From Spirochaetia bacterium (GTDB lineage Bacteria; Spirochaetota; UBA4802; UBA5550): a DNA stretch of 64,000 bases. Location of the stretch: NCBI GenBank assembly GCA_009885955.1, contig VFJS01000031.1, positions 1-64,000 on the forward strand, read 5' to 3'. Under the pieces are notes generated by a model that was not told where the DNA came from, searched no databases, and worked only from the letters and a program-made list of their open reading frames with translations. Below, piece by piece: positions 1 through 6,507 of this stretch. A program made the position numbers and the translations under genes. Each line of letters begins with the position of its first letter. Position 1 is the first letter of the stretch.

Positions 1-294
1 AAACGGATTGACCGGCGGTGATGAATATAGGGATTGTATGTCATGAATTATTTAACCTATTGGGGTCATATAGGGGCGGACATTGAATCCATTCCTATAT
101 AACCAATTTATCATATCTTAATACTGTTATGGACAATATATATTGAATAAATAACCATGAAAAACAGAATAATAATTTCACGTGAATGATTTCCTCTACA
201 AACAGATAATCATTTCTTACATAGCAAAATAACTGAAATACCAATTTCAATTTCCTTTATTCATATATTTCTATCAAACCCATTAAAAATTATC

Positions 295-370
295 TCTCGC
301 AAAGTTCGCTAAGTTTGCAAAGTAGGTTCATGATATCATCTTCTTTGCGCCCTCTGCGCTCTCTGTGTGA
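295..370. repeat. Degenerate dispersed repeat 'tctcgcaaagttcgct..gcaaagt / ctttgcgccctctgcgctctctgtgtgagaa'
   Basis: Same word set recurs at about 1108-1184, 1880-2095, 3548-3575, 3970-4100; covers the 3' end of hsdS. Confidence 0.85.
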
Positions 371-1782
371 GAATTCCCCTCAAACGCTTCCCTCAACACA
401 GCTTGCATCAACTCCTCCGACTGCCCCTTCCTCTCCTCTACTTGCTTTTCCAATTCATCCACCATGGCAAGAAGTCGGTCAATCCGTACAACAATAGCTT
501 GCTGTTCGGCTAGGGGGGGAAGGGGAAACATAGCCTCATTAAGTTTTTCAATTGTTAACGCATTGTAAGATGTATCTGTAGCGTTAAGTATTGTTTTATT
601 CCAAAATAGTGGAGTTTTAAGATACGATAATAAATAGGGTATTGCAGTTGAATTATTTTGCTCAATAAGAACAAGGTTACCATCTTTATAATAGAACTCT
701 CTTTCATCAATAACCCACGTATTGCCTATTGAACCACCAATACAGGCGATTAATATATCACCTGGACTAGGAATGCCAAACTTTTCTTTTATCTCAAAAT
801 ATTTCTCCTTACTAATAAATAATTGTTCTTTTAAAAGGTCGCCTCTTCCAAGAGATCCAATTTCTCCAGATCTTAAAAATGGTATTCCTTCTTTTTTATA
901 ATCAGAAGCATGAATTCTTTTCCCAGATTTAATATTATTAATCATCCCCAACCTGCACCACACCCACCCCTCCGGCAGCTCAAACGGCACCTCCTCCGGC
1001 TTAATCGGCGCAAGGGGCTTCTCTTTCCTGATTTTACCTTCCCCAATCATCTTCAGCTTTTCCGCTTTTATTTTTTCGAGTAACACCGATGCGTCACTAA
1101 ACTCATTCTTCTCTGCGTCCTCTGCGCCCTTTGCGAGAGCCCCTTTTTTTTCTCTCGCAAAGTTCGCGGAGATCGCAGAGTTTTGCTTCCGCCAAGCCTC
1201 GGTCAATTTGCCTTCAATGGCTTCCTGAAGGATGGATTGACGGAGAAGAGAGAGGTGGGTTAATTGTGTATCACTTTCTGAATTTAATTGTAACAAAATA
1301 TTTTTGGAGTTGAGATAGAAATTAATAATTTTTTTTTGTTCTTGAATGGTTGGACACGGTATTTCAAAATCCAAAACTTCTGAAGGGCTTACTCTTGAAT
1401 AATTTGTACTACCTTGAGCTTTAATCTGATTTTGTATTACATCAGTATCAATCAAAACAGATAAATAATCAGGGATAATTTTCTTTTTATCCAATTCATA
1501 GAGATAATAATGACTACTTACAATAGCATTTTCTAAATCTTCGGGGATTATTCCATAGCCACCAAATTTTGCATCCATCTCAGCAACAATGAAATCATTC
1601 TTTTTACAAAGTCTTTGTTTTTTGGTTTTAATGTTAACACCACTAATTTTATCTCTAAGAACAACACCTCTTTTATGCAACTGAACGCGACATCGCTTAT
1701 ACTCAATTGAGTCATCGATTTCAATAAATTCTTTTCTATACTTTGAAATTTCCGATATTTTTACTATTAGTATATTATTCAT
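328..1782 (-). CDS. hsdS: Type I restriction enzyme specificity subunit (HsdS)
   Basis: ORF 484 aa; two target-recognition halves, HsdS motifs 'AIEGKLTEAWRKQN', 'KPLAPIKPEEVPFELPEGWVWCRLG', 'PLPPLAEQQAIV'; downstream of hsdR/hsdM on the same strand. Confidence 0.95.
   Translation of the reverse strand: MNNILIVKISEISKYRKEFIEIDDSIEYKRCRVQLHKRGVVLRDKISGVNIKTKKQRLCKKNDFIVAEMDAKFGGYGIIPEDLENAIVSSHYYLYELDKKKIIPDYLSVLIDTDVIQNQIKAQGSTNYSRVSPSEVLDFEIPCPTIQEQKKIINFYLNSKNILLQLNSESDTQLTHLSLLRQSILQEAIEGKLTEAWRKQNSAISANFAREKKGALAKGAEDAEKNEFSDASVLLEKIKAEKLKMIGEGKIRKEKPLAPIKPEEVPFELPEGWVWCRLGMINNIKSGKRIHASDYKKEGIPFLRSGEIGSLGRGDLLKEQLFISKEKYFEIKEKFGIPSPGDILIACIGGSIGNTWVIDEREFYYKDGNLVLIEQNNSTAIPYLLSYLKTPLFWNKTILNATDTSYNALTIEKLNEAMFPLPPLAEQQAIVVRIDRLLAMVDELEKQVEERKGQSEELMQAVLREAFEGNSHTESAEGAKKMIS
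1108..1184. repeat. Dispersed repeat copy inside hsdS coding sequence
   Basis: 'ttctctgcgtcctctgcgccctttgcgagagcc..tctctcgcaaagttcgcggagatcgcagagtt' read in frame in HsdS. Confidence 0.9.
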
Positions 1783-1803
1783 TTATTATCTCTCGAAATA
1801 ATA

Positions 1804-1853
1804 ACCACGAATGGACACTAATATCTTTTTTTTTATTCGAGTCTATTCGTGGT
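1804..1853. repeat. Inverted-repeat unit 'accacgaatggac ... gtctattcgtggt'
   Basis: Near-perfect 13-bp arms (one extra base) around an AT-rich centre; same 'accacgaa' class as 33640-33721 and 50754-50816. Confidence 0.8.
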
Positions 1854-1879
1854 AATTTATGGTTATCATTATTCATCCT

Positions 1880-2110
1880 CTCTCTCCCCTCCGCGTTCTC
1901 TGCGCCCTCTGCAAGAAACTTCTTCTCTTCACCCATTCACAAGCTTCTAATTTAATATCTCTCGCAAAGTTCGCTAAGCTCGCAAAGTAAACTCATCCTC
2001 TCTCCCCCTCCGCGCTCTCTGCGCCCTCTGCGAGAAACTTCTTTTTTGTTTCTCACAGAGCATACAGAGTTCACAGAGTTCACAGAGTTTTGTCATTTAT
2101 TTCCCTCTGC
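1880..2110. repeat. Tandem cluster of dispersed repeat copies between hsdM and hsdS
   Basis: Two successive copies of 'ccctccgcg.tctctgcgccctctgc.agaaacttctt' plus 'tctcgcaaagttcgctaagctcgcaaagt' and 'cacagagttcacagagttcacagagtt'. Confidence 0.9.
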
Positions 2111-3532
2111 GAGAGAATTCTTCAATTCTTCCAATAGTACATCACTCTTTCTAAACGAATCATGAAGCATCGAAACGAGTTCCTTACTCGAATACCTGCG
2201 CTCCTCTTCCGGAGTATGGGGATTCTTCACATCCAGATTAAATCCATTTCCCGATAGTGTCTTCACCGACACCTTCCAGGCCTGCTCGCTCCCTTTCCTT
2301 TTCTTCCACCACTTTTTCAGGTTCTCAAACTCGCTCTTCTGAATCGGTTTCGTCTTGGAATATGACTTTACCCCTTCCGGAAGTTTATGCTCCCAATACC
2401 AGATATCTTTTGTCGGCTCTCCTTTAATGAAGAACAGCAGATTCGTGGCAACACTCGCATAAGGTTGAAATACCGAATTAGGTAGGCGTACTATTGTATG
2501 AAGGTTACAGCTTTCCAGAAAATGCTGGCGAATGCGTTGTTTTACTCCGTCGCCGGTAAGCGACCCATCAGGTAATACAATGGCTGCGCGCCCTCCGTCT
2601 TTCAGGTAACGTATCATAAGTACCAGGAACAGGTCAGCACTTTCTGTTGTACGGTAATTTTGCGGAAAATTGGTTTCCGCACCGTCGGTAACTGACGCGC
2701 CAAAAGGCGGGTTGGCAAGGATCACATCAACACGGTCTTTGGCTCCTATGCTCGTATATTCACGGTTCAGGCTGTCAGTATAATCAACATTTGGCACTTC
2801 AATATCATGGAGGATGAGATTAGTCACAGATAGCATAAAAGGCAATGGTTTGAATTCCATACCGTGAATTGTTGATTCAAGCAACTTCAGGTCATCAACG
2901 CCTTTAACATCCTGCCTGCGGATATTTTCGATAGCGCTGGTTAAAAATCCTCCGGTTCCGCAGGCCGGGTCGAGTACTTTCTCACCAAGCCTGGGATTGA
3001 TAATTTCTGTCATAAACTCTGTTATTGCCCTGGGCGTATAAAACTCACCATAATTGCCGGCACTTTGAAGGTCTCTGAGTATTGTTTCGTATATGTCACC
3101 AAAAAGATGACGATCTTCCGATATATTAAAATCGATCTGGTTGAGCTGATTGAGCACCTGCCGGATTATGGTGCCGTTCTTCATGTAGTTGTTGGTACCC
3201 TCAAAAATTTCACGGATAATAAGTGTACGTTTATTTCCTGTGGAGACATCAAGATTTTTCAAGCCAGGGAAAAGTTTTTGTTCGATGAAGTCCTTTAGTT
3301 CATCGCCTGTCATACCTTCAGAATCAGCAGCCCAGTTCCGCCATTGCAGTTTTTTTGGTATGGATGATTTATATTTATCATTGAGAAGTTCAAGCTCCTT
3401 GTCCTTGTCATCGATAATTTTCAGTGTAATGAACCAGCCGAGCTGTTCTATGCGCTGTGCATCGCCGGAAACTCCCTGATCTTTCCGCATGATGTTTTGC
3501 AAAGTTTTGATAATATTCCCAATGTTTTTCAT
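2093..3532 (-). CDS. hsdM: Type I restriction enzyme methylase subunit (N6-adenine, HsdM)
   Basis: ORF 479 aa; 'DPACGTGGFL' SAM motif and 'NPPF' catalytic motif ('DVILANPPFGAS'). Confidence 0.97.
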   Translation of the reverse strand: MKNIGNIIKTLQNIMRKDQGVSGDAQRIEQLGWFITLKIIDDKDKELELLNDKYKSSIPKKLQWRNWAADSEGMTGDELKDFIEQKLFPGLKNLDVSTGNKRTLIIREIFEGTNNYMKNGTIIRQVLNQLNQIDFNISEDRHLFGDIYETILRDLQSAGNYGEFYTPRAITEFMTEIINPRLGEKVLDPACGTGGFLTSAIENIRRQDVKGVDDLKLLESTIHGMEFKPLPFMLSVTNLILHDIEVPNVDYTDSLNREYTSIGAKDRVDVILANPPFGASVTDGAETNFPQNYRTTESADLFLVLMIRYLKDGGRAAIVLPDGSLTGDGVKQRIRQHFLESCNLHTIVRLPNSVFQPYASVATNLLFFIKGEPTKDIWYWEHKLPEGVKSYSKTKPIQKSEFENLKKWWKKRKGSEQAWKVSVKTLSGNGFNLDVKNPHTPEEERRYSSKELVSMLHDSFRKSDVLLEELKNSLAEGNK

Positions 3533-3547
3533 GAAATCTCCATATTT

Positions 3548-3575
3548 CTCGCAAAGGACGCAGAGTTCGCAAAGT
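3548..3575. repeat. Dispersed repeat copy between hsdM and the GxxExxY gene
   Basis: 'tctcgcaaaggacgcagagttcgcaaagtt'. Confidence 0.8.
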
Positions 3576-3584
3576 TAATATCAT

Positions 3585-3965
3585 TTATAAATCATTTACA
3601 ATACGTTTAATACCATTTTTTAATAAAGTCTCATTAAAGTTAATCAATAAACCTAATTTCATTCCAGATAACTTTAAATACGTTAGTAATTGCTTCAAAT
3701 GTATTTGTTCAATTTTTTTTACAGATTTTAATTCCACAATAACCAATCTATTTATGATAACATCAGCACGAAATCCCTCATCAATCATTATATTCTCATA
3801 TTTAATTGGGATGAGCACTTGCGCTTCTGTTTTAAAACCATTTTTATTCAATTCAAAAACCAACGCTTTCTCATAAGCAGATTCCAACAATCCCGGTCCA
3901 AGAGCGGAATGAACCTTAATTGCGAAACCGATAATTTTTTCTGATAATTCATTTTCATTTATCAT
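3585..3965 (-). CDS. GxxExxY family protein (PD-(D/E)XK nuclease-like)
   Basis: ORF 126 aa; 'GPGLLESAYEKAL' matches GxxExxY signature, 'VIVELKSVKKI' resembles the ExK core. Confidence 0.9.
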   Translation of the reverse strand: MINENELSEKIIGFAIKVHSALGPGLLESAYEKALVFELNKNGFKTEAQVLIPIKYENIMIDEGFRADVIINRLVIVELKSVKKIEQIHLKQLLTYLKLSGMKLGLLINFNETLLKNGIKRIVNDL

Positions 3966-3967
3966 TA

Positions 3968-4100
3968 TTATTTACGCTCTCTGCGCGAGACTTCTTCTCT
4001 TCACTCACAATCTCCTTGTTTAATATCTCTCGCAAAGTTCGCAAAGTAATTTCAACCTCTCTCCCCCTCCGCGCTCTCTGCGACCTCTGCGAGAAAAACT
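3968..4100. repeat. Dispersed repeat copies between the GxxExxY gene and hsdR
   Basis: 'acgctctctgcgcgagacttcttctcttcac' and 'tctcgcaaagttcgcaaagtaa..ctccccctccgcgctctctgcgacctctgcgagaaaaa'. Confidence 0.88.
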
Positions 4101-4101
4101 C

Positions 4102-6507
4102 TTATGCAGCCCGGTATATTTCCATTTCAAGCTCTTTCAAGGCTTTCATATAATTCTCTTTTCCGCCGAAGTGCCCAATTATTTCAGCCGGTGTTCCAAA
4201 AGTATTAAAAGGGTCCACCTTGAGAACGGTCATGTCTTCTATATTTTCGATTCCCTCGGTGGCGTATTTATCAAGAAGGGCATTTAATATTATTCTCGCT
4301 TTCTCTCCATATTTCACAAAGTAATTCCGTTTTCTCACCTGTTCAGCCCTTTCCCTTCGCGTAAGGGCCGGCATATCCCATGCAATATGGCATATCAGAT
4401 CGAATATATCGAGGTCTTTCTTTACTTCTTCTTTCAGATTTTCAATGATAATACCATTGGACTCCAATTCATCAATCAGGGTCTTCTTTTTCTCAGCTTT
4501 ATTCCACCGGGTTAAAAATTCATCAAGGCTTCTGAATTCCTTTAGGATTCCATTTTTCGTGAAATCTATCAGGCTTTCAATAATAAGTTTACCGTTACCG
4601 TCGAGGTGCTGAACACGTTCATTGAGGATAGATACATCCACTCCTGCAACATATACTTTTCCTTGGGGCTCAGAAATAATGCTTCCACCTGAAATTATAC
4701 CAGGCCCATCTGGTGAATTATCATAGGAATCATTACCGAAATCAACTGCATCTCCTGTTTCAGGGTCTATGATATCTTCATTTTCCTCAGGATGGATATC
4801 TTCTTCGGTTAATTCCTTATCCCCTTTAATTTCTTTAATCATAACAGGATCCCCATCAAATGCCCTGTCTGCAAAAAGATTGGTGACATTCCGAAAATCC
4901 ATTATGGTAAAAAAACTTTTCCCATATTCTTCGTTTATACGAGTTCCACGCCCAATGATCTGCTTAAATTCAGTCATGGAATTAATATTTGAATCGAGTA
5001 CAATTAACTTGCAGGTCTGTGCATCCACACCTGTTGTCATGAGCTTTGAAGTGGTTGCAATGACAGGGTAGGTTTCTTCGGGATTGATAAAATTATCCAA
5101 TTCACGCTTTCCCTCTTCTTCATCTCCGGTAATACGCATGACATACTTATAGTTTTTCTTCACCTCTTCCGGATTTTCATTGGATAGCGCCTGCCTCATG
5201 CGCTCTGCATGTTCAATATCAATACAAAAAACAATTGTCTTATCAAATAGATTGGTCTTTTTAAGAAATTCAGAAATTTTTTTAGCAACAACTTTTGTCC
5301 GCTCATCAATAACGAGATTTTTGTCGTAATCTTTAGTATTATAAATTCTATCTTCAATTTCATTTCCTGTTTCATCAGTCTTCCCTTTCTCAGGACGCCA
5401 GCCATCAAGATCAACATTGATTCCAATGCGGATTACCTTGTAAGGTGCAAGAAATCCGTCTTCAATCCCCTGTTTTAAAGTGTAAGTATAAATCGGTTTG
5501 CCGAAGTAATCAATATTTGATATTTCTTTTGTTTCTTTTGGAGTTGCGGTTAAACCTATCTGTGTGGCAGAGGAAAAATATTCAAGAATTTCTCGCCAGG
5601 CACTATCTTCAGCAGCGCTTCCCCGGTGGCACTCATCAACAATTATTAAATCAAAAAAATCCCGGCTGAATTCCCTGTAGGCGTCCTTGTCTTCATCGTA
5701 ATTCGTAAGTCCCTGATAAAGAGCAAGATAAATCTCATAGGCTTTATCAATCTTTTTCTTGCGGATAACGGTCATTCGGTCCTTAAAGTGTTTAAAATCA
5801 CCCCGTTTGGCCTGGTTAATAAGAATGTTTCTGTCAGCAAGAAAGAGTATTCGTTTTTTTGTACCGCTTTTCCAAAGTCGGTATATGATTTGAAACGCAA
5901 CATAGGTCTTTCCCGTACCTGTTGCCATAACAATAAGAATACGATTTCTTTTTTTTGCAATTGCTTCAATAGTCCGGTTTATCGCAATCTGCTGGTAATA
6001 GCGCGGCTTTCGTCCAGAGCCATCAAAAAAATAGTCAAAAGAAGCGATATTCTCTTGTTCCTTTGATTCTATACCTTTATATTTTTTATATTTTTCCCAG
6101 ATTTCATCAGGTGATGGAAAAGATTCGAGTGATAGATTTCTTTCAATAGTCTTACTTTGACCTGAACGGTCATGCTCAAGAAATCCATCTCCGTTTGAAC
6201 TAAAAGCTACTGGTATATCGAGGATTTCCGCATAATTTAATGCCTGTTGCATACCTGCGCCAATTGCATGCTTGCTGTCCTTTGCTTCTATGACAGCAAT
6301 TGGAATATTTGCTTTATAATAAAGAATGATATCAGCACGTTTCCTTTCCCCGCGGGCCGTTTTATTCCCTTTAACAAATATCCGCCCATCGGTAAAATAA
6401 ACTTCTTCCCGGACCTGTTTCTCAATATCCCATCCGGCACTATGTATAGCAGGAATTATATATTGGGTACAAATATCCCGTTCTGATAAGTCTTTTTTTG
6501 AAGTCAT
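4102..6507 (-). CDS. hsdR: Type I restriction enzyme endonuclease/helicase subunit (HsdR, EcoEI-like)
   Basis: ORF 801 aa; nuclease 'AVIEAKDSKHAIGAGMQQALNYAEI', Walker A 'MATGTGKTYVAFQ', 'DECHRG', 'QIIGRGTR'. Confidence 0.96.
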   Translation of the reverse strand: MTSKKDLSERDICTQYIIPAIHSAGWDIEKQVREEVYFTDGRIFVKGNKTARGERKRADIILYYKANIPIAVIEAKDSKHAIGAGMQQALNYAEILDIPVAFSSNGDGFLEHDRSGQSKTIERNLSLESFPSPDEIWEKYKKYKGIESKEQENIASFDYFFDGSGRKPRYYQQIAINRTIEAIAKKRNRILIVMATGTGKTYVAFQIIYRLWKSGTKKRILFLADRNILINQAKRGDFKHFKDRMTVIRKKKIDKAYEIYLALYQGLTNYDEDKDAYREFSRDFFDLIIVDECHRGSAAEDSAWREILEYFSSATQIGLTATPKETKEISNIDYFGKPIYTYTLKQGIEDGFLAPYKVIRIGINVDLDGWRPEKGKTDETGNEIEDRIYNTKDYDKNLVIDERTKVVAKKISEFLKKTNLFDKTIVFCIDIEHAERMRQALSNENPEEVKKNYKYVMRITGDEEEGKRELDNFINPEETYPVIATTSKLMTTGVDAQTCKLIVLDSNINSMTEFKQIIGRGTRINEEYGKSFFTIMDFRNVTNLFADRAFDGDPVMIKEIKGDKELTEEDIHPEENEDIIDPETGDAVDFGNDSYDNSPDGPGIISGGSIISEPQGKVYVAGVDVSILNERVQHLDGNGKLIIESLIDFTKNGILKEFRSLDEFLTRWNKAEKKKTLIDELESNGIIIENLKEEVKKDLDIFDLICHIAWDMPALTRRERAEQVRKRNYFVKYGEKARIILNALLDKYATEGIENIEDMTVLKVDPFNTFGTPAEIIGHFGGKENYMKALKELEMEIYRAA

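Follow-up and report, generated by a model that had tools for sequence, protein, structure and literature searches.

The window, which is the whole 64-kb stretch of Spirochaetia DNA that was analysed, opens with a minus-strand type I restriction operon that occupies its first 6.5 kb. Its hsdR gene (4102–6507, minus strand) belongs to the EcoAI/FtnUII family, which is type IB-like (NF046051, 1182 bits against a cut-off of 550). The other genes of the operon, all on the minus strand, encode a GxxExxY protein (PDDEXK_3; 3585–3965; TIGR04256, E = 8e-43; PF13366) with repeat arms in inverted orientation on either side, the type I methyltransferase HsdM (2093–3532; PF02384, E = 1.3e-68) and the specificity subunit HsdS, for which an open reading frame (ORF) of 484 aa is present (328–1782; Pfam Methylase_S PF01420, E = 2.6e-25; PADLOC Specificity_I). 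HsdS has two target-recognition domains (TRDs) with Methylase_S similarity, TRD1 (about 1357–1782, minus strand) and TRD2 (about 529–981, minus strand), and two coiled-coil helices; hsdM and hsdR are adjacent, and the predicted fold matches the solved HsdS structures 5ybb and 3okg. TRD1, which is of RKEFIEIDD type, recurs at 43–52% identity in HsdS proteins of Nitrospirae, Planctomycetia, Verrucomicrobia and Cyanobacteria (L037–L042), the remaining parts of which differ; judged by sequence, it is a widely exchanged TRD. The GC content of the operon is 38% compared with 44–52% elsewhere in the window.

Positions 1111–1180 (minus strand), delimited by palindrome search, core-pattern matches and folding, form a complete palindromic repeat that is translated in frame in the HsdS linker as residues about 201–224. 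An earlier sequence-only reading had quoted codons and a peptide for an in-frame repeat between the TRDs, and both are present; that the repeat is a complete palindrome had gone unsaid. Its arms (1111–1139 and 1152–1180) are 29 nt each and 83% complementary, with a 12-nt loop, and the sense-strand hairpin folds at −24.4 kcal/mol compared with −10.4 for shuffles (z = −6.2). The palindrome is composed of 9-nt CTYTGCGNN units and ends at 1111 and 1180 in CTCTGCG/CGCAGAG, with flanks TTCTT and TTTTGC. It is free of stop codons in all six frames, as are only 0.6% of random 70-nt stretches of the region, and the peptide read from it is hydrophilic and A/E/K-rich.

CTYTGCG words recur in the operon gaps, as the same reading had noted: palindrome search and core-pattern matches locate an arm cluster in the hsdM–hsdS gap (1886–2087), an arm in the gap that separates hsdM from the GxxExxY gene (3545–3574) and copies in the next gap, which lies between the GxxExxY gene and hsdR (3977–4096), with a further copy at 292–378. 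These copies are mutually about 63–95% alike. The core CTCTGCGNNCTYTGCG, with two mismatches or fewer, has 19 matches in 64 kb where 0.49 are expected, all of them at 298–4091; with one mismatch at most it has 44 matches in the whole 4.77-Mb genome compared with 1 for a reversed control pattern. Elsewhere in the genome, clear copies are intergenic: no ORF that covers one exceeds 97 aa, compared with 484 aa for HsdS, and three single-mismatch core matches in long ORFs resemble chance. A dispersed repeat is thus found in a predicted reading frame as well as between genes, which on sequence grounds would place the hsdS insert in the functional class of protein-coding palindromes like the Rickettsia palindromic elements (RPEs); the likeness to Rickettsia proposed earlier was apt, in that a dispersed, mainly intergenic palindromic repeat lies in frame inside a gene. 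The GTAG/CGTC tetranucleotide of REPs is absent at both ends of the palindrome. For the MITE class, which is defined by terminal inverted repeats with a target-site duplication, an inverted repeat is present, but an exact empty site was not found among the insert-free homologues compared because these differ around the junction. The HsdM C-terminus (2103–2122) was also considered as repeat-encoded and was dropped because the orthologue in genome G035 ends in a similar SLANG. The window's own genome also contains near-identical copies of a longer unit with CTCCGCG-type arms (L012–L015; G000:C25:104681–111438).

Orthologous operons in related genomes place the insert in a comparative context. 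HsdM and HsdR are 84–89% and 76–78% identical to those of the window in G035 and G148, 82% and 73–79% identical in G047, and 65% and 55% identical in G014. The TRDs of these operons are unrelated to those of the window (19–28%); the segment after the joint together with the second helix is 51–82% identical among full-length HsdS proteins. The closest homologue, from G035 in the same order, carries the same insert as a diverged copy of the window palindrome; 66 of 81 nt are identical, without gaps and with the same loop, so the two inserts read as one shared insertion. Both TRDs of the G035 protein are unrelated to those of the window and the insert is common to both proteins, which indicates that the insert outlived TRD replacement. 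At the orthologous place in G148 the translated palindrome is a different one and belongs to the ATTCGTG family; more copies of it lie in the gaps of that operon. Unrelated sequence of the same length in close homologues, which had been named in advance as evidence against an insertion, is thus found in part in G148, but this sequence is itself another translated palindrome and the insertion reading is therefore strengthened. A palindrome of ATTCGTG type also lies at 1800–1857 of the window, in the hsdM–hsdS gap (24-nt arms, 83%), and belongs to the family that is translated in the G148 linker. The G148 operon includes an hsdM–hsdS segment with small ORFs (L280, G148:C20, 9560–10800) that has the ATTCGTG palindrome and adjoining sequence on either side, as near-identical direct copies, and resembles a composite element.

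The linker is 75 aa long in the window, 56 aa in an insert-free homologue (G303, L073) and 46–50 aa in many others. A clean insertion of about 26–28 aa had been expected; an insertion is present, but the linker exceeds that of the insert-free L073 protein by about 19 aa net and the common 50-aa linker by about 25 aa, which indicates insertion plus local replacement. The CTYTGCG family exceeds its control in G035 on the hsd contig only. This restriction and the GC-poor operon fit horizontal transfer in which operon and repeats would have moved together.

The same joint is occupied by palindromes elsewhere in the phylum. The survey comprised 134 non-redundant HsdS-like ORFs, all from this phylum, with linker limits set by regular expressions and a strong palindrome defined by a stem score of at least 14. 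Thirteen of 14 strong stems were assigned by script to linkers that precede a TRD, which make up 8.4% of residues (nominal p = 1.4e-13), and the fourteenth, in an HsdM–HsdS fusion, proved on inspection to have the helix on one side and TRD2 on the other; when the first 118 genes were dinucleotide-shuffled, 0–1 strong stems resulted. The 14 stems are non-independent, because they represent about six families in six or seven lineages and eight come from one family; if six independent events are assumed, our own arithmetic gives a chance of about 4e-7. The families are CTYTGCG (window and G035), ATTCGTG (G148), TTGTCACACGGATT (joints of G177, G145, G174, G384 and G364), CGTAGGGGAGGGTCGCGACCCTCC (G158), GGATTCGTAGGATT (G221) and AGGATAAACAGGATAGACAGG (G041). 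Longer or weaker joint inserts include SPSL..SATPSAG (G283, G273, G282, G352 and G311), RHSELVSESK (G220), HGDTEARRGKG (G322), VVEPAETT (G174) and ATCACGGATT (G176). Several linker inserts recur in the genome that carries them or in a related one, and those of G283, G220, G322, G176 and G148 match other sites in their own genome. The STTLSLRKSG insert of G014 is unconfirmed as a dispersed family because it matched hsdS copies only, and the L202 insert matched only itself in G221. Six loci from other phyla mainly have TRD1 in common and lack this linker type, three HsdS proteins on viral contigs have short, palindrome-free linkers, and all plasmid HsdS matches are below 60% identity. Unrelated repeats have come to lie repeatedly in the same joint of related proteins, and the joint before a TRD therefore resembles a site where mobile repeats land time and again, not a spacing device.

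Genes for GxxExxY proteins and for the 23S-IVS protein (IVP) also lie between repeats. When 230 nt on each side of a gene were compared for matching sequence (E < 1e-4), 18 of 33 GxxExxY genes (PF13366) and 12 of 21 IVP genes (PF05635) had matching repeats in direct or inverted orientation on both sides (loci L289–L317 and L318–L340 for the two sets together), compared with 6 of 139 control ORFs of the same loci, three of which are hsdS or hsdM. The bracketed share is thus 55–57% versus 4%. In G176 two palindrome copies enclose a GxxExxY gene, and the HsdS joint carries a third. These arrangements, taken from sequence comparison, suggest candidate mobile elements of palindrome plus ORF, with solo palindromes as putative by-products.

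The hsdS insert is most likely a tolerated, hitchhiking protein-coding palindrome like those of Rickettsia. A single copy of a palindrome that is dispersed and lies mainly between genes would have integrated in frame between the coiled-coil helix and the next TRD. Some mobility mechanism would insert the palindrome and selection would follow, with only in-frame, open insertions in the joint leaving a working enzyme. Insertions would be tolerated in the joint for two reasons: neither the coiled coil nor either TRD includes it, and the repeat, with its 9-nt period and stop-free frames, reads as hydrophilic, A/E/K-rich peptide. If an insertion survives only when the enzyme still works, unrelated palindrome families would collect in the same joint. 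Operon and repeats would travel jointly by horizontal transfer, and the insert would stay in place as flanking TRDs are exchanged; both TRDs were replaced after the insertion, so that joint and palindrome outlive TRDs. The identity of the repeat, its position, its recurrence, the ancestry shared with G035 and the unchanged helix length are direct observations, from which we infer that the joint is flexible and that tolerance causes the positional bias. HsdS that carries the insert could be impaired. Taken as a whole, this account of in-frame integration into a flexible helix–TRD joint, persistence through TRD exchange and joint transfer of operon and repeats is, in our judgement, probably correct.

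A second in-frame copy bears on an alternative in which the palindromes act as recombination hooks. ORF and palindrome searches place this copy at 292–378 (minus strand), at the 3′ end of hsdS, where it encodes the last ~14 HsdS residues (NSHTESAEGAKKMIS) and the stop codon; it had not been mentioned previously. This C-terminal tail is absent from two relatives, with HsdS ending in AFEG in G035 and in AFETGK in G148. The palindromes at 1111–1180 and 292–378 would then serve as points of homology or breakage for swaps of TRD cassettes, like the x/y repeats of hsdS in Helicobacter and Streptococcus. In the window as in G035, the repeat bounds TRD2 on either side, both TRDs differ between these proteins while the insert is common to them, and TRD-flanking repeats mediate domain movement elsewhere (PMC3077401). 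In G035 the hsdS 3′ end is tandemly duplicated (L279, G035:C421, 11201–11531), and precisely between the two copies sits a CTYTGCG palindrome; this suggests breakage or recombination there, although one case proves little. Conserved coding segments beside the TRDs (about 80% identical) could suffice for such exchange, however; the repeat copies are only about 63–95% alike, and the TRD replacement was observed between species. We consider a hook function unlikely. A broader version, in which HsdS joints are hot spots that capture palindromes of many families as TRD-swap hooks, mobilised in trans by the GxxExxY nuclease or the 23S-IVS four-helix protein, and in which palindrome plus ORF forms a new kind of mobile element, is speculative and rather doubtful.

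The palindrome might instead act as an mRNA hairpin that causes attenuation, affects processing or makes translation pause between the HsdS halves, with the peptide as a by-product. The hairpin is stable in the sense strand and its overall pairing is kept in G035, where a pair survives one two-sided change and new pairs arise from three one-sided changes. Two further two-sided changes between the window and G035 break pairs, however, so selection on pairing is not established. Several recurrent joint inserts fold weakly (L046, L067 and L219), Rfam has no match in the 64-kb window, and a role for the hairpin appears improbable.

The sequence-only reading had proposed that the insert lengthens the central spacer and thereby retunes the distance between half-sites. 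The insert does lie between the TRDs, and repeat-number changes of the spacer are established for EcoR124I/II: in the step from EcoR124I to EcoR124II, TAEL is added within the coiled-coil helix and the spacing thereby changes (PMC3874165). The element expected to set half-site spacing here is the central coiled-coil helix (residues 146–189; 1216–1347, minus strand), which is insert-free and was delimited from the structural model and its constant length. From EQ to GKL this helix has 46 residues in the window, G148, two copies in G014, G004 and, by hand count, G035, while the linker after it has 75, 79, 64, 50 and 75 aa in the window, G148, G014, G004 and G035, respectively. The second helix (residues 424–468; 379–513, minus strand; also from the model) is 78–82% identical in G035 and G148. 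In an AlphaFold model of modest confidence (mean pLDDT 66, six sequences), residues 200–226 lie outside both helices with pLDDT mostly below 50, and the insert site is probably a flexible joint after the helix and before TRD2. In HsdS proteins of the other domain order (L061, L062 and L212), like inserts are found ahead of the first TRD as well and hence do not lie between TRDs. A repeat within the helix that changes its length, as in EcoR124, is not what is found, and the earlier proposal is not supported on this point; the insert would have no effect on recognition spacing, and retuning is very improbable. An ordinary low-complexity linker with a chance likeness to the repeat can be dismissed, even though A/E/K-rich linkers are common, since the palindrome exists at the nucleotide level, its 9-nt words are identical to intergenic copies and a different palindrome occupies the orthologous site in G148.

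Mobile palindromes captured in frame were previously reported from scattered genes of Rickettsia and of some REP-bearing species. A single structural joint, in a single enzyme family, that collects about six unrelated palindrome families within one phylum provides a testable rule, namely that an insertion persists where the protein is able to ignore it. The joint marks a natural insertion site in type I enzymes, and linker length should not be taken as recognition spacing. Bacterial repeats of a common but orphan class might be driven by the repeat-bracketed GxxExxY and IVP genes. No report of the HsdS joint as a recurrent insertion site was found in the open-access literature searched.

Intervening sequences of 23S rRNA are palindromes that contain a small ORF for the IVP four-helix protein. 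IVP and GxxExxY genes are likewise repeat-bracketed here, whereas the hsdS copy is a solo, ORF-free palindrome and does not lie in rRNA. EcoR124I and EcoR124II share repeat-encoded length variation between TRDs with the window protein, but TAEL lies inside the helix and the hsdS insert lies after a helix of unchanged length. In domain movement (DoMo) and phase-variable hsdS systems, repeats flank TRDs (PMC3077401), as they do here; the DoMo x/y repeats are intrinsic to the gene, whereas those of the window are genome-dispersed palindromes, and TRD replacement next to them was seen only between species. Intragenic REPs of the GTAG and CGTC families are short, mainly intergenic and sometimes inside ORFs, as is the hsdS element, and in two Xanthomonas species different REPs lie at approximately the same position in recB (PMC3733652); the hsdS element lacks the terminal GTAG/CGTC tag and is built of CTYTGCGNN units. 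RPEs are dispersed palindromic DNA translated in frame within genes whose host protein tolerates them (PMC10969869), and the hsdS insert is likewise a dispersed palindrome translated in frame. The organism and the repeat differ, and RPEs are spread across many genes, whereas HsdS palindromes of unrelated families converge on one joint.
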